From positions 1-24,335 of the IMG/VR virus record IMGVR_UViG_3300048925_000682: a DNA stretch of 24,335 bases, one strand, 5' to 3'. The translations under genes and the position numbers were made by a program. The stretch's first letter is position 1. Every line of letters begins with the position of its first letter. The stretch is from a virus. Shown here piece by piece: positions 3,340-17,187 of the stretch. Below the pieces are notes generated by a model. It saw only the letters and a program-made list of their open reading frames with translations, made no database searches and had not been told where the DNA came from.

Positions 3340-3342
3340 TAT
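3313..3342 (+). promoter_or_regulatory. Possible moron promoter (weak σ70-like)
   Basis: CTGGCA (3313-3318) and TAGTAT (3337-3342) are separated by 18 bases, each matching four of six σ70 consensus positions. The pair overlaps the end of the minor head gene and lies just upstream of an AT-rich small gene that has its own terminator, the promoter-gene-terminator layout of a phage moron. The match is weak and could be chance in AT-rich DNA. Confidence 0.25.
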
Positions 3343-3366
3343 TTTGGTAATTGCTAAGGATTGCAG

Positions 3367-3714
3367 ATGACAAAATTATTTAAGCTTCCACCAGAAAAAA
3401 TATCGAAATTGTTACATTCGTATTGGGCGATTTTGAAGGCAAACAGAAGAACCAAACCAGATGTAATACTCACTCATAAGGGACTTATCGAGGCTTTTGT
3501 TGCAGATCAACTTAATCGCGAGAACCTAGATGATGAGGATTTAAAGGAAATTGTTTGGTTTATCGCCGGTTCCACCGACCTGCTAAAAACATTGGATACG
3601 CGGCAATTTCTTACGCCAATGATTGCTGATATTCACCGGGAGGTCAGAGCTGCTTATCCCAATAATCTTTACGATCCCGCCACAGCCAGCGCAGTTGACA
3701 TACTAATTTATTAA
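3367..3714 (+). CDS. AT-rich small protein of unknown function, moron candidate
   Basis: I do not recognise this 115-residue protein. It is mostly helical in appearance, Lys-rich at the N-terminus (LFKLPPEKISKLLHSYW), acidic in the middle (RENLDDEDLKEIVWF), and has no signal peptide, membrane segment or metal-binding Cys pattern. The ATG at 3367 is preferred over a TTG at 3361 because AAGGA (3356-3360) sits six bases upstream. Composition and codon use (AAA, ATT, TTT, TTA) are clearly more AT-rich than the flanking head genes, which points to separate acquisition. A strong intrinsic terminator follows within ten bases. It lies between the minor head and scaffold genes, so a head function is possible, but composition and terminator favour an accessory gene. 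Confidence 0.8.
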   Translation: MTKLFKLPPEKISKLLHSYWAILKANRRTKPDVILTHKGLIEAFVADQLNRENLDDEDLKEIVWFIAGSTDLLKTLDTRQFLTPMIADIHREVRAAYPNNLYDPATASAVDILIY

Positions 3715-3722
3715 GCAATCCG

Positions 3723-3744
3723 ACCCGCTAGCGCGGGTTTTTTT
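3723..3744 (+). terminator. Intrinsic terminator before the scaffold gene
   Basis: Stem ACCCGC/GCGGGT with a TAGC loop is followed by seven T. It closes the AT-rich gene at 3367-3714. The bases just after it (ATGCCCG) match those after the terminator at 11408-11429, so it belongs to the repeated hairpin cassette of this window. Confidence 0.85.
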
Positions 3745-8847: not shown

Positions 8848-9228
8848 ATGGCCAAGTTCAAATTGATCCAGAAGCCTACCTTCAAGGCACCGGTGATGAT
8901 CCAGCGTGCCGGTTATAGCGCCGAGAAGGTGGAGTTCGAGTTCAAGTACCTGGACCGCACAGCGCTCGCCGAGCTGTACACCGGCTGGAACGAGCGGCAC
9001 GACGAGTTGAGCAAACAGGTAGGGGGCATGGACCTCAAGGCATTCACCGCTGCTCAGATCGATCTGCAGGCGGACCAGCTGCTTGACGTCGTCGTTGGCT
9101 GGGATATCGAGGAAAAGTTTACGCCTGAAAATGTGCGAATCCTCGTCAACTCGATCAACTCAGCGCCGAAGGCCGTGCTGAATGCCTACGCCGAAGCTTT
9201 CAATGAGGCCCGCCTGGGAAACTCCTAA
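8848..9228 (+). CDS. Tail assembly chaperone, short form (λ gpG-like)
   Basis: The 126-residue product of normal termination should bind the tape measure and help load tail tube subunits without being retained in the virion. It sits directly after the major tail protein. Features include a β-rich start (FKLIQKPTFKAPVMI), a helical middle and a C-terminal helix (SAPKAVLNAYAEAFNEARLG). Just before its stop is the heptamer G GGA AAC in the correct phase for -1 slippage. AGGAAGG upstream of the ATG is a strong ribosome-binding site. Confidence 0.87.
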   Translation: MAKFKLIQKPTFKAPVMIQRAGYSAEKVEFEFKYLDRTALAELYTGWNERHDELSKQVGGMDLKAFTAAQIDLQADQLLDVVVGWDIEEKFTPENVRILVNSINSAPKAVLNAYAEAFNEARLGNS

Positions 9229-9545
9229 GCGCTGCACGCGCGCTCTATGAGCCAACGCTAGAGGGCACGGATGCCTTCGGCTTCACCGCGGACGACTACG
9301 TCGCGGAGGTTGGCATCTGGCCGGACAACTGGGAGGCCTTCAAAGTCTTCGAGGCCATGAGCACCCAGTGGCGCACAGGCGCGTGCGGCGCAACAGGCAT
9401 GGACTACAGCGTTCTCTCCGGTGTGATTCGGATGTGTGGCGTACCGATCAGCCAGCGACAAACCATTTTCAGCGACTTCCGCCGTATGGAGGCTGAAGCC
9501 CTGCAGGTGATGGCGGAACAGAGGGAGAGCGCGAGGGGCGCCTGA
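8848..9545 (+). CDS. Tail assembly chaperone, -1 frameshift form (λ gpGT-like, DUF1799-like extension)
   Basis: Slippage at 9216-9222 would join 8848..9222 to 9222..9545, giving about 232 residues. The second part, read from 9222, begins LLSAARALYEP and contains ADDYVAEVGIWPDNWEAF, STQWRTGACG and TGMDYSVLSGV, matching the DUF1799 family that supplies the T part in many λ-like phages. This frame has no start codon until 9357, inside the conserved block, and no stop between 9222 and 9543, so frameshifting is the only sensible way to make the whole domain. In λ the G:GT ratio controls tail assembly around the tape measure. Confidence 0.85.
9216..9222 (+). promoter_or_regulatory. Programmed -1 ribosomal frameshift site (GGGAAAC)
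   Basis: The heptamer GGGAAAC lies in the zero frame as G GGA AAC, an ideal X XXY YYZ site, two codons before the stop of the short chaperone. λ uses GGGAAAG at the same place. A possible stimulatory hairpin, AGCGC (9228-9232) with GCGCT (9240-9244), starts five bases downstream. Confidence 0.88.
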
Positions 9546-9605
9546 TCCTCAGGCACAACGACGCAAAATATCCAACGTGACGCGGCAAAGCCGTAGAGGT
9601 GCATC

Positions 9606-9758
9606 ATGCAAAAGAAAAATGATTTGAGCTCGGAGGTTCAGCTGGGCATTTCAGTCTTGGCACTCCGTGAAGTGCTAAGCAACGATTGGAGGGTGCTGAT
9701 GACCAAGCACCCTCAAACCGGTGTTTATTACGCAGCCGGAATTAAGCTCGTCCGGTAA
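9606..9758 (+). CDS. 50-residue protein of unknown function
   Basis: This short gene starts at ATG 9606 with GAGGT (9596-9600) five bases upstream. The product begins MQKKNDLSSEVQLGI and ends TGVYYAAGIKLVR; it has no signal peptide or Cys, and I do not recognise it. It is the first gene of the accessory island between the chaperone and the tape measure. Its last 17 bases overlap, tail to tail, the 3' end of the opposite-strand gene 9742-9990. Being short it could be spurious, but the ribosome-binding site and placement 60 bases after the chaperone stop support it. Confidence 0.6.
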   Translation: MQKKNDLSSEVQLGISVLALREVLSNDWRVLMTKHPQTGVYYAAGIKLVR

Positions 9759-9990
9759 TCGCCTGAGACAAACTGTCGAGATAGCTGTCATGTAGCGCTT
9801 TATCGATGCCGTCGTAGTTTTCTGCCTTCAGATTGTTGAGGTCTTGGGAAATGACGTTTGCTATTGCATCATTTCCAAAAGCAAGACGTCGTCCCAATAC
9901 CGCCGCCGCATTCATGTTGAAAACGATTGACGTTTTAAGGGCTAACTCTAGATCAGCGATACGCTGGTCTACTGTCTTCTGTTCACTCAC
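9742..9990 (-). CDS. 82-residue unknown protein on the opposite strand
   Basis: The product is a small, probably all-helical protein: the first 20 residues (SEQKTVDQRIADLELALKT) look like a short coiled coil, followed by an Ala/Asn-rich section and an acidic C-terminal helix (GIDKALHDSYLDSLSQAI). It starts at GTG with GGAGGT four bases upstream; an overlapping ATG is out of frame and stops at once. It runs against late transcription, downstream of the other reverse gene (10072-10332), so the two may form an operon. The function is unknown; it is not an expected virion component. Confidence 0.72.
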   Translation of the reverse strand: MSEQKTVDQRIADLELALKTSIVFNMNAAAVLGRRLAFGNDAIANVISQDLNNLKAENYDGIDKALHDSYLDSLSQAITGRA

Positions 9991-9992
9991 AT

Positions 9993-10063
9993 TGACCTCC
10001 AGGTCATTAACGCGCCGATATTGGCGCTATCCCAGTCCTTGGGCTTGCAGGCGAAGGACTGGG
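9993..10063 (-). repeat. Cluster of inverted repeats between the two reverse-strand genes
   Basis: Three inverted repeats are stacked here. TGACCT-CC-AGGTCA (9993-10006) is a 14-base palindrome that includes the ribosome-binding site of the gene at 9742-9990. GCGCC/GGCGC lies at 10012-10027. A perfect 10-base repeat, CCCAGTCCTT (10031-10040) with AAGGACTGGG (10054-10063), stands just after the stop of the gene at 10072-10332. The 10-base stem could end transcription or stabilise mRNA; it lacks a T-run in either direction. Confidence 0.5.
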
Positions 10064-10071
10064 GGAATCCT

Positions 10072-10332
10072 TTAGCCTCTTGTTTGAGTCTTGACGATCA
10101 ATTGCCACTGTACTTCGATCTTCGGGTCGGCGTGCTGGTGTCGGTTTTGAGGAGGGAAGTGATCGTCTTTATTGGAGGTGATTTCGTGACCGCAGCCTGT
10201 GCATCGGTAGATGCCGGAGGCTGGGACGACACTCCCGACGCGGTAAACGTACTTCCAGTCCTCTGATCCGGTAAGGACTGTCGGCATGACTTGCTTGATG
10301 TAGTTGGCGGTATTAGCGATAACCTCTGCCAT
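10072..10332 (-). CDS. 86-residue protein with zinc-ribbon-like Cys/His cluster, opposite strand
   Basis: The conserved-looking core is YRVGSVVPASGIYRCTGCGH (residues 30-49), continuing to FPPQNRHQH. Cys44, Cys47, His49, His58, His65 and His67 are possible metal ligands. The sequence 'G..aP.SGiY.C..CG' recurs in small bacterial and phage proteins that I cannot assign to a function. The ATG at 10332 is chosen over an adjacent ATG at 10338 because GAGGGA ends directly at 10338, leaving six bases to 10332. A longer frame running back to 10518 has no upstream support. Transcribed away from the lipoprotein gene, it is an accessory gene and not a tail component. Confidence 0.68.
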   Translation of the reverse strand: MAEVIANTANYIKQVMPTVLTGSEDWKYVYRVGSVVPASGIYRCTGCGHEITSNKDDHFPPQNRHQHADPKIEVQWQLIVKTQTRG

Positions 10333-10455
10333 ATTCATTCCCTCGAATGGCTCTGTAGGAGGCACAAAGCTACTACGGAGAACCTCGCTCCAGTTACTGG
10401 CATTCCATCCACGCTGGATGCCTGGACAGCTGCCAACCCCCGCCAGCCCGAAGAA

Positions 10456-10475
10456 CCCCGGCCATGCGGGGCTTT
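10456..10475 (+). terminator. Weak terminator-like hairpin
   Basis: CCCCG (10456-10460) pairs with CGGGG (10467-10471), followed by CTTT. The T-run is short. It could limit read-through of late transcripts into the lipoprotein gene. Confidence 0.35.
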
Positions 10476-10486
10476 CGTGTTGCTCT

Positions 10487-10522
10487 CTCGTTGATGATAA
10501 AGTCCCGCAATATCTCAACGAG
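10487..10522 (+). repeat. Perfect inverted repeat in the lipoprotein leader
   Basis: CTCGTTGA (10487-10494) and TCAACGAG (10515-10522) are exact inverted copies 20 bases apart, ending in the ribosome-binding region (GAGGGA, 10520-10525) of the lipoprotein gene. This could be an operator or a leader stem that hides the ribosome-binding site. Confidence 0.55.
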
Positions 10523-10530
10523 GGAACGAC

Positions 10531-10953
10531 ATGAAATTATTCGTAGGTGCTCTGGCGGTAGCGTTGCTGGCTGGTTGTGCGACTTCACCAGTTCCGTCCG
10601 ACAAGGCTCGCCCAGCGCCATCCGAAAGGGTAAGCGGCTACCAAAAGCCAGTTTCTGGTGGTAGTTCGCTAATCGTGACGAGAGACACAGGTTTTCTCGG
10701 CGGCGGCTGCTTCGCGACCATCTTCCTAAATGGTGCTCCCGTGGCAAAGCTGGACACCGGCGAGAAGGCTGTCTTCCAGGTGCCTTCCGGTGAGTGGTTG
10801 TTAGGCGCCGCATTGGATGGTTCGGCACTTTGCGCAGCGAACCCCGAGCGAATGGAAACGTCAGTAGTTTTGAAGCAGGGCCAGCAAAAGAAATTCAGGG
10901 TTTTCCTCCCTGCTGGCGGCGGGTCCATAGCCGTGCAGCCGAGCAGCTTCTAA
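10531..10953 (+). CDS. Small lipoprotein, moron / exclusion candidate
   Basis: The 140-residue protein has a lipoprotein signal peptide: a short basic start (MK), hydrophobic residues 4-14, and the lipobox LLAGC with Cys16. Ala at +2 predicts outer-membrane sorting. The mature part is a Ser/Pro linker followed by a β-rich domain (SSLIVTRDTGFLGGGCFATI; GEKAVFQVPSGEWLLGAAL) with two further Cys. Similar small lipoproteins are common in Pseudomonas prophages. Phage lipoproteins at such sites can block receptors or otherwise exclude other phages, but that role here is inference. GAGGGA precedes the ATG. It is transcribed with the late genes but divergently from the reverse pair. Confidence 0.82.
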   Translation: MKLFVGALAVALLAGCATSPVPSDKARPAPSERVSGYQKPVSGGSSLIVTRDTGFLGGGCFATIFLNGAPVAKLDTGEKAVFQVPSGEWLLGAALDGSALCAANPERMETSVVLKQGQQKKFRVFLPAGGGSIAVQPSSF

Positions 10954-11051
10954 GCGAATCGTCGAAGGCGCCATAGCAAGTTGTTCGTGGTGGATATGGC
11001 GGTTCCTGCGGGAAATGGTAGATTGCTTTCCTTGATCAAGAGGATGGGTCT

Positions 11052-11390
11052 ATGGGCAGTGAATCGGGAATGGTTGGCGCTGTGATGCTGTTTTTTATTG
11101 GCGCAGTGCTTTATTTCTTGCCAACTATTAACGGCAAAAGCAGAAAGCATCCAAATATTGACTCCATATTTCTCCTTAACTTGTTTTTAGGGTGGACCCT
11201 CATCGGCTGGGTGGCAGCGCTGGTCTGGTCAGCATCCGCCATAAGCAAGCCTGTGGAAGCGAAGAACAGCCCCACCGCTCCAGAAATCGACAGATACGAA
11301 GCCCTTGAAAAGCTTGTGTCCATGAAGGAGCGCGGATTTATTTCGGAAGATGAGTTCCAAGCCGAAAAAGCAAGACTGCTTCGAAGCTGA
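11052..11390 (+). CDS. Imm-type superinfection immunity membrane protein with SHOCT tail
   Basis: This 112-residue inner-membrane protein has two transmembrane segments, about residues 7-25 (MVGAVMLFFIGAVLYFLPTI) and 38-62. The second contains LNLFLGWTLIGWVAALVWS, the signature of the superinfection-immunity family named after T4 Imm, whose members hinder DNA entry of incoming phages. A polar linker leads to a C-terminal SHOCT motif (YEALEKLVSMKERGFISEDE, then FQAEKARLL), a short helical domain often found at protein ends. AAGAGGA precedes the ATG and a strong terminator follows the stop. The AT-rich N-terminal half suggests acquisition. The immunity role is family-based inference. Confidence 0.85.
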   Translation: MGSESGMVGAVMLFFIGAVLYFLPTINGKSRKHPNIDSIFLLNLFLGWTLIGWVAALVWSASAISKPVEAKNSPTAPEIDRYEALEKLVSMKERGFISEDEFQAEKARLLRS

Positions 11391-11407
11391 ACATCAGTAC
11401 AACCACT

Positions 11408-11429
11408 ACCCGCTACGGCGGGTTTTTTT
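11408..11429 (+). terminator. Intrinsic terminator before the tape measure gene
   Basis: ACCCGC/GCGGGT with loop TACG is followed by seven T, then ATGCCCGGAGAAAAATA and the tape measure ATG. It closes the accessory island and is a strong member of the repeated terminator/RBS cassette. Confidence 0.87.
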
Positions 11430-11446
11430 ATGCCCGGAGAAAAATA

Positions 11447-14400
11447 ATGAGCACCAACTTCGCCTCCCTGGGCATTGCCGTTGAGTCCTCGCAAGCAGCA
11501 AAGGCCGCTGACGACCTGGATAAATTGGTCGACTCGGCAGAAGGTGCACAGAAGGCGATCGACGACCTAGGCAAGACTGGTGAAGGCTTGGCCAACACGG
11601 GCAAGAAGATCACTCAGGCAGAAAATGGGGTAGCCCAGGGCGTCGAGAAGTCCACTGCCGCGATAGATCGCAGGTCCGGTGCAAGCCGCAAAGCGACTGA
11701 AAGCGCCGCCGCAGAGATCACCGTTATCAGCCAACTCGACAAGGCGATGACGGGCAATATCGACAGCATTGAATCCTTAGTGCGGGCAGAGGGTTTGTTG
11801 GAGCGCGCTCGCAAAGGCGGCTTGGTCACTATCGAAGATCAGGCAAAGTATCAAGATCAGCTGGGCAAGGCCTACGACAAAATCGAGAAGGCCGAAGCCA
11901 AGGAGTTGGCGCAGAAACAGAAGCTGATTGACGCCGAAAACCGCCAGATTGAGGCGCTGAAACGCACCGTCAACGGGATTGACCCGGTGACCGCCAAGCT
12001 GGCGAAGTTGGAGGCCCAAGAGAAAGCGCTAAACGACCTGCACAAAACAGGTCAGATAGATGCCGAACGATACCAGGATGCCCTTGCCAAGATCGGTAAG
12101 GACCGTGCCGGGCTGACCGCGACGGAGACTGCGTTCGACAAATTGAAGCTCGGCACTCGCCAAGCCCAAGAGAACGTAATGCAGCTTGCCAACGCCCTGC
12201 AGTCGGGCGATCTGGGGAGCGGTGCGCGAGCCATTGCACAATTGGGTGCTGGTGCCGGCGAATCAGCGCGAAGTCTGGCGGGGATGATAATTCCAGCCGG
12301 TCTGCTGGTGACCGTTCTTGGGTCGCTTGGCTACGCCTATTTTGATGCAATGAAACAGGCGCGCGAGTTCAATGCCGCAATTAATGGCGGAACCAATGGC
12401 GCCGGCCAGACAATTGCCAGCTTGAAGGATATGGCCGACGGCGCCGGGCGAATCACTGGAAATCTATCCGGCGCGCGTGAAGCGGTTGTGTCGCTTGCGT
12501 CGGGCGCCGCAACAAGCGGCACGCAGATGCGCAACCTGGCTGAGGCTGCGGCAGCGATCAGCGAAATCACGGGGCAGGGCGCTGGCGAACTCGCGAAGTC
12601 TTTCGCCACTGCCGGTGATACAGCGACAGAGGCTGCAGGAAAAATCAGCAGCCAGTATGGGTTGCTTACCCTAGATCAGTACCAAGTGATCAAGGGGATT
12701 GATGACCAAGGCGATCATCAGCGCGCGCTTGATGTCCTGAGTGGAAACTTGAATGAGGCGGCTCTAGAGCGCCTCAAGGCTTATCGAGGCTCGCTCTCCG
12801 ATATTGAGCGAGATTGGGATGACATCGGAAACGCGACAAAACGCGCATATTCCTACATTCGGTCGGAAGCGTTTCCAGACCTCGCGAAGCAGATAGAGCT
12901 AACCCAGCGCGTGCTTGATACACGCAAGGCGGGCGGAGTATCGGGGGCTATATCTGCAGGGCTGGGCAAGGCAAGCACAGCATTTGACTCGATGCTAGGA
13001 CTGGAGGACACCGACTCAACCGAAGCGCTGGAGAAGAAACTCGCAAGCCTCAAGGCCAGGCAAGCAGCCAATGCCAATCTGGCAATCATCACTGGCGAGA
13101 ACACCGACGCAAACCAGAAAGCTATCAAGGTCCAAAAAGAACTGGATGCGCAGCTCGATGAGATTAACCCTCTAAACAAGCGCGCTGCGGGGCTGGACAA
13201 GCTCAACGATAAATTCAGAACGCTTTACGAGAACTCTGAGAGGACGGGCCAAAAGTCCAAGCTTCTGGATGGCGTCGATTTTGACGGTAAAAAGTTCTCA
13301 GGGGGTGCTTACGACACCTTGCTGAAAGGGCTCAACGACAAAAACAAAGACCCCAAGGCCGCTAGCTCTCAAGTCGACCTGACCAGCTTCAACAACGCCA
13401 AGAACAACCTGTCCGACATCGTCAATGAATACAAAAATGCCCAGAAGGAACTGGAGGCTGAACAGAAGCGCGGTGTGGTATCGCTGTCGGACTATGCCAA
13501 GCAACGGTCGGCCCTGATCAACCAGGAAAAGGACGATGTTACCGCAGCGTACCAGGCCGAGATTGATGCCCTGGAGGCGGCGAAAGGTAAGAAGTCCACC
13601 ACAGCGGCGCAAAGTATCCAGCTTGACCAGAAGATCGCCGACGCTCGCACCGGAATGGTCAAAGCTCAAAAGGATTCCGACAGTCAGCTGACGATCATCG
13701 CCACAAGCGAGAAGGGGCGGCTGGAGCAGCTGAAGGCCGCCTCGGCGGCGTATGTCAATCAGCTAGAGCGTCAGCGTGCCGCACTGGAAGCTGCTGGCTC
13801 CCGCGCAGCAAACGGACTGGGCTTGGGAGATCGTCAGGCGGCACTGCAAGCGAGCCTGGACGCAACCACAGACAAGTTCAACGACGAGCGCGCCAAGCTT
13901 CTGGATCGCCGCAAGACAGCGCCTGACAAGTACAGCCAGGAAGACTACATGCGGGACCTGGCCAGCCTGGAAGATGCGGAAAGGAAGTACCGCGACACCG
14001 TGGTCGACAACTACGACAAGATGTCGGAGGCGCAGGGTGACTGGCGTAGCGGAGCCTCTTCGGCCTTCCAGAACTACCTGCAATCTGCCAACGATGTGGC
14101 GGGACAGACCAAGAGCCTGTTCACCAATGCCTTCAGCTCCATGGAGGACGCAGTCGCGAATTTTGCTGTCACTGGCAAACTTTCGTTCTCGGACTTCACC
14201 AAGTCGATCATCGCCGATATGGCCCGTATCGCCACTCGGCAAGCAGCGTCTGGCTTGCTTTCGAGCCTGGCCGGTACCGCTATTGGCGCGTACTTCGGTG
14301 GCGGTGCGGCTGCTGGCGCTACCAGCTTCGGGTCTGACATTGGTGGTGCCATCACAGCGAACGCCAAGGGCGGTGTGTACGACTCCCCAAGCCTTTCGAG

Positions 14401-14752
14401 CTTCAGCAACCAGGTGCACGACAAGCCGCAGATGTTTGCGTTCGCCAAGGGCGCGGGCATCTTCGCCGAGGCCGGCCCGGAGGCAATCATGCCGCTGACC
14501 AGGACCGCCGGCGGCGAGCTTGGTGTCCGTGCGCTGGGTGGCGGTGGTGGCGGGGCGGGCGGTGGCAATACCTTCAACTTCCCAGTATCGGTTTCCGTGC
14601 AAACGGCTGGTGACGGCAGCGCACCGACGCAGGAAGACACCACTCAGCTGGGCAAGGGCATCCAGCAGGCAGCCAAAACCGAGGCAGAAACTGCTATCGC
14701 CAAAGGCTTACAACCTGGCGGATCAATCTGGCGCGTCATCAACGGGAGGTAA
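11447..14752 (+). CDS. Tail tape measure protein
   Basis: At 1101 residues this protein sets tail length and is ejected with the DNA. The N-terminal half is Lys/Glu/Ala-rich and helical. A hydrophobic stretch at about 280-302 (MIIPAGLLVTVLGSLGYAYF) is the probable membrane-insertion segment. The C-terminal region has the λ-family tape measure end: DWRSGASSAFQNYLQSAND, SLFTNAFSSMEDAVANFAV, LSFSDFTKSIIADMARI, then a Gly/Ala-rich section and GIFAEAGPEAIMPL, followed by a poly-Gly stretch. By analogy with λ, roughly 1.5 Å per residue would predict a tail of the common siphovirus size. CGGAGA lies upstream of the ATG in the repeated leader. gpM follows two bases after the stop. Confidence 0.93.
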   Translation: MSTNFASLGIAVESSQAAKAADDLDKLVDSAEGAQKAIDDLGKTGEGLANTGKKITQAENGVAQGVEKSTAAIDRRSGASRKATESAAAEITVISQLDKAMTGNIDSIESLVRAEGLLERARKGGLVTIEDQAKYQDQLGKAYDKIEKAEAKELAQKQKLIDAENRQIEALKRTVNGIDPVTAKLAKLEAQEKALNDLHKTGQIDAERYQDALAKIGKDRAGLTATETAFDKLKLGTRQAQENVMQLANALQSGDLGSGARAIAQLGAGAGESARSLAGMIIPAGLLVTVLGSLGYAYFDAMKQAREFNAAINGGTNGAGQTIASLKDMADGAGRITGNLSGAREAVVSLASGAATSGTQMRNLAEAAAAISEITGQGAGELAKSFATAGDTATEAAGKISSQYGLLTLDQYQVIKGIDDQGDHQRALDVLSGNLNEAALERLKAYRGSLSDIERDWDDIGNATKRAYSYIRSEAFPDLAKQIELTQRVLDTRKAGGVSGAISAGLGKASTAFDSMLGLEDTDSTEALEKKLASLKARQAANANLAIITGENTDANQKAIKVQKELDAQLDEINPLNKRAAGLDKLNDKFRTLYENSERTGQKSKLLDGVDFDGKKFSGGAYDTLLKGLNDKNKDPKAASSQVDLTSFNNAKNNLSDIVNEYKNAQKELEAEQKRGVVSLSDYAKQRSALINQEKDDVTAAYQAEIDALEAAKGKKSTTAAQSIQLDQKIADARTGMVKAQKDSDSQLTIIATSEKGRLEQLKAASAAYVNQLERQRAALEAAGSRAANGLGLGDRQAALQASLDATTDKFNDERAKLLDRRKTAPDKYSQEDYMRDLASLEDAERKYRDTVVDNYDKMSEAQGDWRSGASSAFQNYLQSANDVAGQTKSLFTNAFSSMEDAVANFAVTGKLSFSDFTKSIIADMARIATRQAASGLLSSLAGTAIGAYFGGGAAAGATSFGSDIGGAITANAKGGVYDSPSLSSFSNQVHDKPQMFAFAKGAGIFAEAGPEAIMPLTRTAGGELGVRALGGGGGGAGGGNTFNFPVSVSVQTAGDGSAPTQEDTTQLGKGIQQAAKTEAETAIAKGLQPGGSIWRVINGR

Positions 14753-15856: not shown

Positions 15857-16612
15857 ATGCGCAAACACATCATTGCGGCCATCCAGTCGCATGCAGCGGC
15901 CGAGTACCCGAAAGAGTGCTGCGGGCTGGTACTTGCCGTGGGCCGGGCGCAGAAGTATTTTCCGTGCCGGAATATCGCCACGGAGCCGAGCGAAGAGTTC
16001 CGGCTCGATCCCGAGGACTACGCCGCGGCGGAAGACCTGGGCGAGGTGATCGGCATTGTCCATTCACACCCGGACGCAACCAGCAGGCCTTCACCGCACG
16101 ATCTGGCCATGTGCGAGGCGACGGCGCTGCCCTGGCATATCCTGTCCTGGCCCGAGGGCGACATGCGCACGATTACGCCCTCTGGCGCCGTGCCGCTGCT
16201 CAAGCGACCATTTGTTCATGGTGTGTGGGACTGTTGGGCTGTATGCGAAGAGTGGTACCAGCGCGAGTGGGGCCTTAAGTTCGAGAACTTCAAGCGGGCT
16301 GATGGCTGGTGGGAGAGCGCAGACAGCGCCAGCTTGTATGAGGCGAACTACGCCGCCGCTGGTTTCGAGCAAGTGGATAGTCCGCGACGTGGCGACATGC
16401 TTGTGATGGAGGTAGGCCGCACGGCGCATCCAAACCATGCAGGGATATACCTGGGCACTGACGCAACACTGCCAGGCGAAGATTCAGGCGTGTTCGGTCC
16501 TGGACCCTTCGTCCTGCATCACCTGTACGGCCGGCCATCAGAAGTAATCGTCTATGGCGGCCCGTGGCTTCAGCGAACCCGCTTAATTCTTCGACACAAG
16601 GAGGCCCGATGA
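15857..16612 (+). CDS. Tail tip peptidase (λ gpK-like): JAMM + NlpC/P60
   Basis: The 251-residue protein has two enzyme domains. Residues 1-~110 form a JAB/MPN domain with a full JAMM motif: Glu20 and His69-x-His71-x7-Ser79-xx-Asp82. Residues ~115-251 are an NlpC/P60 peptidase with Cys126 in GVWDCW, His194 in PNHAGIYLG and His221/222 in LHHLYGR. In λ-type phages gpK acts in tail tip assembly and may cut peptidoglycan stems during DNA entry. All expected catalytic residues are present. GGAG lies upstream; the stop overlaps the gpI start (ATGA). Confidence 0.93.
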   Translation: MRKHIIAAIQSHAAAEYPKECCGLVLAVGRAQKYFPCRNIATEPSEEFRLDPEDYAAAEDLGEVIGIVHSHPDATSRPSPHDLAMCEATALPWHILSWPEGDMRTITPSGAVPLLKRPFVHGVWDCWAVCEEWYQREWGLKFENFKRADGWWESADSASLYEANYAAAGFEQVDSPRRGDMLVMEVGRTAHPNHAGIYLGTDATLPGEDSGVFGPGPFVLHHLYGRPSEVIVYGGPWLQRTRLILRHKEAR

Positions 16613-17187
16613 GTGCCATCGCCTATTCGCCGATGACCACCATCAAACTGTCCGGCTCGCTGGCCCAGAAGTTCGGCCGGCTGCATCGGCGCCAGGTCGC
16701 ATCGGGCGACACGTGGGAAGTTTTCCGGGCGCTGAAGGCCACCATTGACGGATTTGAGGCCGAGATCCGCCGTCTTGATCGCCTGGGCCTTCGCTTCGCC
16801 ATCTTCCGCAACCGAAAAAACGTCGGAGCGGACGAGTTTGGCATGGGCGGGGCCAGGGAGATAAGGATCGTTCCAGTGATCGAGGGCAGCAAGCGCGGCG
16901 GCATTTTGCAGATTGTTTTGGGCGTGGTGCTGATCGCAGCGAGCTACTTCGGCGCACCGACGGCGCCTGCGGGTATCGCGCTGCTGGCCGGCGGCGTTAT
17001 CCAGATGCTCAGCCCACAGGCCGCTGGCCTCAAGCAGAGCGCATCCCCAGAAAACATGCCCAGCTACGCATTCGGCAGCGCAAAGAACACCACGGCCAGC
17101 GGCAACCCTGTCCCTATCTGCATCGGGGAGCGCCGGTGGGGCGGGGCGATTATCTCGGCATCGATCTACGCCGAAGACAAGACATAA
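16609..17187 (+). CDS. Tail assembly protein (λ gpI-like)
   Basis: The 192-residue tail tip protein has an N-terminal ubiquitin-like/β-grasp region (TIKLSGSLAQKFGRLHRRQV), then the conserved REIRIVPVIEGSKRGG, a long Gly/Ala-rich hydrophobic hairpin at about 97-134 (ILQIVLGVVLIAASYFGAP), and a C-terminal part ending PVPICIGERRWGGAIISASI. In λ it is needed for tip assembly with J. The ATG at 16609 is chosen over an in-frame ATG at 16564 because AAGGAGG lies directly upstream and the K stop overlaps it. Confidence 0.92.
   Translation: MSAIAYSPMTTIKLSGSLAQKFGRLHRRQVASGDTWEVFRALKATIDGFEAEIRRLDRLGLRFAIFRNRKNVGADEFGMGGAREIRIVPVIEGSKRGGILQIVLGVVLIAASYFGAPTAPAGIALLAGGVIQMLSPQAAGLKQSASPENMPSYAFGSAKNTTASGNPVPICIGERRWGGAIISASIYAEDKT

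Follow-up and report, generated by a model that had tools for sequence, protein, structure and literature searches.

The five small genes that separate the G-T tail assembly chaperone gene from the tape measure gene (TMP) in the window (by which the whole analyzed stretch of 24,335 nucleotides is meant) make up a cargo island, in which it is the linkers, rather than the genes, that recur from phage to phage. An insertion site along with its empty form, a terminator, constant elements following each other in a set order, genes differing from one relative to another, and two alternative tail-operon junctions are all directly visible in the sequences compared. The explanation that we favor, and to which, taken as a whole, a probability of roughly 0.7 might be assigned, is that of a prophage cargo (moron) cassette array, the genes of which are exchanged at their leaders, expressed in the lysogen, and serve to exclude other phages.

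As a linear virus record of 24.3 kb, the window covers the head and tail operon of a siphophage that is lambda-like and of the Pseudomonas type; the genes read portal, head morphogenesis, scaffold, major head, connectors, major tail protein, G/GT, tape measure, M, L, K, I, J, and tail fibre. On the left, the array is flanked by the G and G-T chaperone (8848-9545, plus strand; G alone at 8848-9228), with G being a Phage_TAC_4 protein (PF08748, E 2e-40); the slippery heptamer GGGAAAC at 9216-9222, read in the register G GGA AAC, fits the X XXY YYZ pattern, and the −1 frame T extension following it is open up to a stop at 9545, as is typical of a lambda-type G/GT pair. The right flank is TMP (11447-14752, plus strand; PF09718, PF06791, and phrog_24). 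A five-gene accessory island between these two had been proposed in the first-pass annotation, and all five ORFs, at the positions it gave, as well as their flanks and strands, are indeed as claimed; as each of the ORFs belongs to a protein family present in other arrays, they are not chance ORFs. The terminator in which the island was said to end exists as well, albeit at 11408-11423, just past the proposed end at 11390, and the true unit is the entire GT-TMP interval (9546-11446; 1,901 bp, five genes, both strands). With its G+C content of 52.4%, compared to 58-60% in the flanks, its position as extra DNA between genes adjacent in relatives, and a terminator of its own, the interval has three hallmarks of a moron in the HK97 sense. 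An Rfam search of the 24.3-kb stretch gave no match, and a tRNA/tmRNA search found none.

Relatives were collected on the basis of their TMP and their G, both among viral contigs and among Pseudomonas genomes, and in most of them the site is empty, with the T stop either overlapping the TMP start or lying within a few tens of bases of it (GAACAGAGAGAAAACAAATGAGC), which bears out the earlier statement that GT normally abuts TMP. The remaining relatives have inserts of about 0.5-9 kb between GT and TMP, and nearly all of the occupied sites feature a single terminator patterned as CCCGCnnnnGCGGGTTTTTT, after which come GCCCGGAGAAAA and the start of TMP; the small GT inserts of two loci in the 95-array set (L081 and L167) were dismissed as artefacts of a divergent TMP start. 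This site is not new, since the HK97 record already has gp15, located between H and the frameshifted tail gene, annotated as a moron, with a terminator after it; going by the title of Cumby et al. 2012 as it appears in the reference given by PMC10884400, the gp15 protein acts in superinfection exclusion. Another putative terminator is found right before I in the HK97 record, as are gp22 and the reverse-strand gp23 between I and J. HK97 is, hence, like the window in having a moron gene and a terminator at the GT-TMP (GT-H) junction, ahead of the tape measure gene, yet it harbors a single small gene there, whereas the arrays described here reach up to about 9 kb and possess several slots, constant leaders, and a second site. 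The junctions are thus known as moron sites, while their organization into an array of cassettes behind constant leaders would, as far as the open-access literature goes, be new.

When 22 other GT-TMP inserts were mapped on the window, the matches peaked in the intergenic DNA and vanished in several of the genes, which reverses the usual profile: linkers are constant and genes are variable. Five such constant elements, LE1 to LE5, were delineated, and their frequencies are given below both for these 22 inserts and for 69 arrays at a second tail-operon junction, that between K and I; the K-I arrays were partly collected through LE2, which biases the LE2 frequency at K-I upward. LE1 (9546-9596, plus strand) consists of a small GC hairpin and then a Shine-Dalgarno sequence ahead of the first cargo gene, and its DNA is matched in up to 9/22 GT-TMP inserts and in 40/69 K-I arrays. 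LE2 (9986-10073, minus strand) is a constant leader with inverted repeats (CCCAGTCCTT..AAGGACTGGG, GCGCC..GGCGC, and GACC..GGTC around the Shine-Dalgarno), matched in 13 of the 22 inserts, with its exact 32-bp core present in 55 viral stretches; the element was also found, mostly as a single copy, in 56 of 399 sampled Pseudomonas genomes (14%). LE3 (10366-10429, minus strand; 10/22 and 44/69) is a constant linker about 35 bp upstream of the slot B gene start, and LE4 (10447-10556, plus strand; up to 15/22 and 29/69) is a constant leader with a GC hairpin at 10456-10471 and a Shine-Dalgarno, which extends into the signal-peptide codons of the lipoprotein gene and is also found ahead of unrelated lipoproteins. 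LE5 (11408-11446, plus strand; up to 19/22) is the intrinsic terminator (stem at 11408-11423) fused to the TMP ribosome-binding site. Each of LE1 to LE4 sits at a gene start or shortly ahead of one; in LE1, LE2, and LE4, a Shine-Dalgarno is combined, next to that start, with an inverted repeat rich in GC; and the LE1-LE2-LE3-LE4 order is identical at the GT-TMP and K-I sites in dozens of relatives. As for what LE2 might be, its stems and loop are about equally invariant and arm changes are seldom compensated when inspected by eye, which leaves RNA pairing as such unsupported, and both spacing and conservation, likewise judged by eye, do not fit a sigma-54 or sigma-70 promoter.

The inverted repeats of LE2, a core that is almost invariant, loop included, over some 50 bp, and the free change of genes on both of its sides might bring to mind integron attC, i.e., linkers acting as recognition sites of a dedicated exchange system, with the genes entering by site-specific recombination. 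LE1, LE2, LE3, and LE4 are, however, different sequences in a fixed order, not one repeated site, no integrase gene was noticed within the arrays, and empty sites retain no attachment sequence, and we regard such a system as very improbable. The nearest analogue of the leaders is provided by the SAS/ESAS elements of cluster K mycobacteriophages, a conserved inverted-repeat sequence located immediately upstream of the starts of unrelated genes, the SAS being a 13-bp GGGATAGGAGCCC present in 11-19 copies per genome in non-structural genes (PMC3203893). Both have inverted repeats at the starts of unrelated genes, but SAS is one repeated sequence, whereas LE1-LE4 are four different, ordered sequences lying inside the tail operon, usually in one copy each, and in a single copy in the array of the window.

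The cargo itself begins with two genes in slot A. The A1 gene (9606-9758, plus strand) encodes 50 aa without a significant Pfam or PHROG match, and its family occurs mostly at K-I (8 to 10 K-I arrays and 1 GT array); the A2 gene (9742-9990, minus strand; 82 aa), whose GTG start is fed by LE2, belongs to a family of 10 K-I and 1 GT arrays and found no match in 50,697 phage records. In three other loci (L009, L033, and L138), the A1 proteins contain short motifs (e.g., GxxFISEAEILKGQ) that, by eye, look like the C-terminal part of the tail tip protein J. The slot B gene (10072-10332, minus strand; 86 aa), with an ATG start inside a longer TTG ORF, encodes a phrog_15514 protein (E 5e-42), the family of which is present in 13 arrays; its CxxC/HxxQH residues (CxxC...HQH), invariant in 12 sequences, point to a putative zinc-binding protein, and its predicted structure (pLDDT 74.5, i.e., of lower confidence) had no match at E <= 0.001.

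Slot C, between LE3 and LE4, is empty in the window, while in relatives as much as 7 kb can be found there, including genes for Bro-N antirepressors and, judging by eye, for Arc-like repressors. This is what could make one suspect that the island is the shrunken remnant of a regulatory module like immI of P22, kept by inertia; the five ORFs are, however, all intact, as are their families elsewhere, and most K-I arrays are short and bear no trace of a former immI-like module, so that we give this origin hardly any credence. Among the relatives, the GT-TMP inserts of L136/L006 and L127/L047 (about 9 kb, with Bro-N-type antirepressors and, by eye, Arc-like repressors in slot C) resemble the P22 immI region placed inside a tail operon. 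P22 immI comprises sieA, mnt, arc, and ant in the late region, and its likeness to slots C and D of such relatives lies in an exclusion membrane gene, Arc-type repressors, and an antirepressor found between late structural genes. The window, in contrast, has no immI-type genes, and differs from P22 immI in its other genes, constant linkers, and two-site habit. Other cargo seen in relatives includes a glyoxalase-fold protein, a HEPN AbiU2-like protein (L165 and others), and, in K-I arrays such as L226 and L174, a HigB-like toxin paired with an antitoxin-like HTH partner.

Slot D holds the two genes that had been proposed to be membrane-targeted, and sequence-based predictions support this for both. 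The first (10531-10953, plus strand; 140 aa) encodes a predicted lipoprotein with the lipobox LAGC (phrog_890, E 7e-43), whose family was found in 42 arrays (35 K-I and 7 GT); its model is a predicted beta sandwich (pLDDT 84), for which the structure search returned no informative relative (best Z 8.6, to unrelated proteins). The second (11052-11390, plus strand; 112 aa) encodes an Imm_superinfect (PF14373, E 1.7e-17) and SHOCT (PF09851, E 5.7e-8) membrane protein, scoring 63.5 bits against PF14373, for which the curated cut-off is 27.9, and also matching phrog_1039, immunity to superinfection. Over residues 9-109, nearly its whole length, it shares about 35% identity with the annotated Imm of T4-like phages, and an Imm-like ORF directly precedes the tape measure gene in P. 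aeruginosa phage YMC11/02/R656 too. No match to a known defence system was returned by PADLOC for any of the five genes. Since one Imm_superinfect/SHOCT membrane protein and one lipoprotein are encoded, superinfection exclusion is plausible, judging from these domain matches, for Imm, and less surely so for the lipoprotein; the Imm_superinfect/SHOCT protein is the best functional lead among the five. Similar signal peptides are seen on unrelated lipoproteins, with the LE4 matches extending into the codons of several of them (window positions 10531-10580), as if mature domains had been swapped behind a fixed leader and signal peptide.

At the second junction, the window phage has no cargo, with K (15857-16612) overlapping I (16564-17187) at 16564-16612 on the plus strand. 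Beside recognized tail genes, LE2 was encountered at one of two junctions, GT-TMP or K-I, the exception being L179, which is distant and could not be placed; the orientation of LE2 never varied. Most of the loci from the LE2-positive Pseudomonas genomes have it after K; several have it before TMP, and two of these possess chaperone-like ORFs that, by eye, are unlike G of the window; in L243 and L254, LE2 lies beside host-like genes with no recognized tail genes within 1.5 kb, and these are probably prophage remnants, judging by the neighbors. Where both junctions could be read (66 loci, some overlapping records included), cargo was present at K-I only in 54, at GT-TMP only in 11, at both in 0, and at neither in 1 (L171). 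A strict rule of one array per phage is not absolute, though, as neither site is filled in L171 and apparently both are in L157 (P. fuscovaginae), where, assuming that the hits are on one contig, K-I holds cargo and G/T is separated from TMP by about 6.5 kb; the L157 prophage appears to carry cargo at GT-TMP, M-L, and K-I together. Just as at TMP, a terminator is found just before I in nearly every K-I array.

Comparing the interval across relatives supports the proposed gene turnover, as occupied sites hold different genes. The opposite case, with the same five genes fixed in all relatives, was not encountered: none of the relatives examined has all five, because the slot A genes of the window are absent from the other GT-TMP inserts examined, and its Imm gene is absent from K-I arrays. 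Nineteen families were counted at the A1 position (44 arrays), and 19 as well at A2 (65 arrays). Across 42 arrays, the median DNA identity of slot A is 0.57 vs 0.55 for shuffled sequence, with 73% of the pairs at or below the 95th percentile of the shuffles, compared to 0.85 for LE2. Most of the multi-member A1/A2 families occur at both sites, and slot A pairs are up to 97% identical across the two. Upstream of both sites, the major tail protein and G are mixed between the site types (cross-type identity up to 99%), while TMP, M, L, K, and I for the most part sort according to which site is used. The simplest history that could be read from this pattern would be a rare relocation linked to the TMP-I block, after which cassettes and flanks were swapped. 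Of the two sites, K-I seems the older, given that phrog_890 is found between K and I in other phages (coliphage mEp390, P. aeruginosa phage 5400, and the Antarctic Pseudomonas phage phiAH14a) and that PseuP_222 has a putative lipoprotein after K.

That phages of several hosts have the lipoprotein at K-I, or directly behind K, could, alternatively, mean a routine late-gene role, in which case the array, or at least the lipoprotein, would be a normal component of the late tail operon (produced late in the lytic cycle and functioning in assembly, lysis, or release) and the other genes would be hitch-hikers. All 69 K-I arrays do contain a lipoprotein ORF, but these ORFs fall into two main unrelated families with similar signal peptides, so two unrelated mature domains substitute for each other there; moreover, several GT-TMP arrays have Imm only, without the lipoprotein, and two of the five genes oppose the direction of the late operon. 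We consider this alternative rather unlikely.

Junctions other than these two are also occupied in places. A third cargo site lies between the head morphogenesis and scaffold genes of the window (3340-3744), which has a low-G+C gene there (3361-3714), and the terminator after this gene matches LE5 in 25/27 bases; 66 of 74 relatives hold 277-802 bp at this site and the other 8 are empty, and none of the 74 has a homologue of the window gene. Small inserts (about 0.3-2.2 kb) were also seen at L-K (L025, L036, and L044), M-L (L053 and L157), TMP-M (L006 and L008), and, in several loci, I-J.

In the cargo cassette array model that we favor, the genes would be swapped when phages undergo homologous recombination within the constant leaders, the terminator, or the tail genes on either side, as the mosaic pattern suggests, so that a leader already in place would serve each newly captured coding sequence. 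The lysogen would express both the genes that point rightward (A1, the lipoprotein, and Imm) and the two that point leftward (slot B followed by A2), with the terminator shielding TMP from such transcription of the island, and late antiterminated transcription would read through it. At the inner membrane, Imm might then block the entry of superinfecting phage DNA, like T4 Imm and HK97 gp15, the lipoprotein might alter or mask some component of the envelope, and further functions in defence, counter-defence, or host modification might fall to the small proteins of slots A and B. Expression in the lysogen is the weakest step of this model, as no sigma-70-like promoter was found between positions 9000 and 12000 (1.4 would be expected by chance) in a scan confined to that promoter type. 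That the leaders, LE2 above all, go further and constitute an active platform for the capture and expression of interchangeable small genes, anti-phage or counter-defence in nature, under one regulatory signal, a phage counterpart of the integron that would use homology and be mobile between two tail-operon sites, is a bolder thought, and a doubtful one.

As far as other phages are concerned, tested defence systems are known from the anti-phage hotspots of P2/P4, each a small locus between two conserved phage genes (PMC9122126). The high turnover of accessory genes there is like that of the island, while the phages and the junction differ, and the genes of the island encode small proteins. We know of no constant internal leaders in the P2/P4 hotspots. 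Prophage 06 of P. fluorescens Pf-5 is described, in the passages of PMC2647930 dealing with it, as having four extra genes that interrupt its tail module and as harboring two antirepressors among the tail genes; from its gene order, the insert is probably a K-I array, and no description of linkers, cassette exchange, or an alternative site was found in those same passages. The Tab moron of P. aeruginosa phage JBD26 is a small prophage defence gene inside a late operon as well, but, going by the sections of PMC10884400 on this moron, JBD26 is Mu-like, and Tab lies elsewhere in the late operon and acts on the tail assembly of invading phages, unlike the island. The open-access literature, to which the search was limited, yielded no account of a cassette array that is defined by its linkers and sits at either of two sites in the tail operon.

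Prophage cargo sites are a main source of new anti-phage and counter-defence genes, and constant leaders provide a simple DNA tag for finding such cargo: the genes adjacent to LE2 amount to about 19 families per slot in two slots, almost all of them without an assigned function. The array also lends itself naturally to asking how phage mosaics can swap individual genes in the middle of an essential operon and leave it working, and why two sites almost never carry cargo at once.
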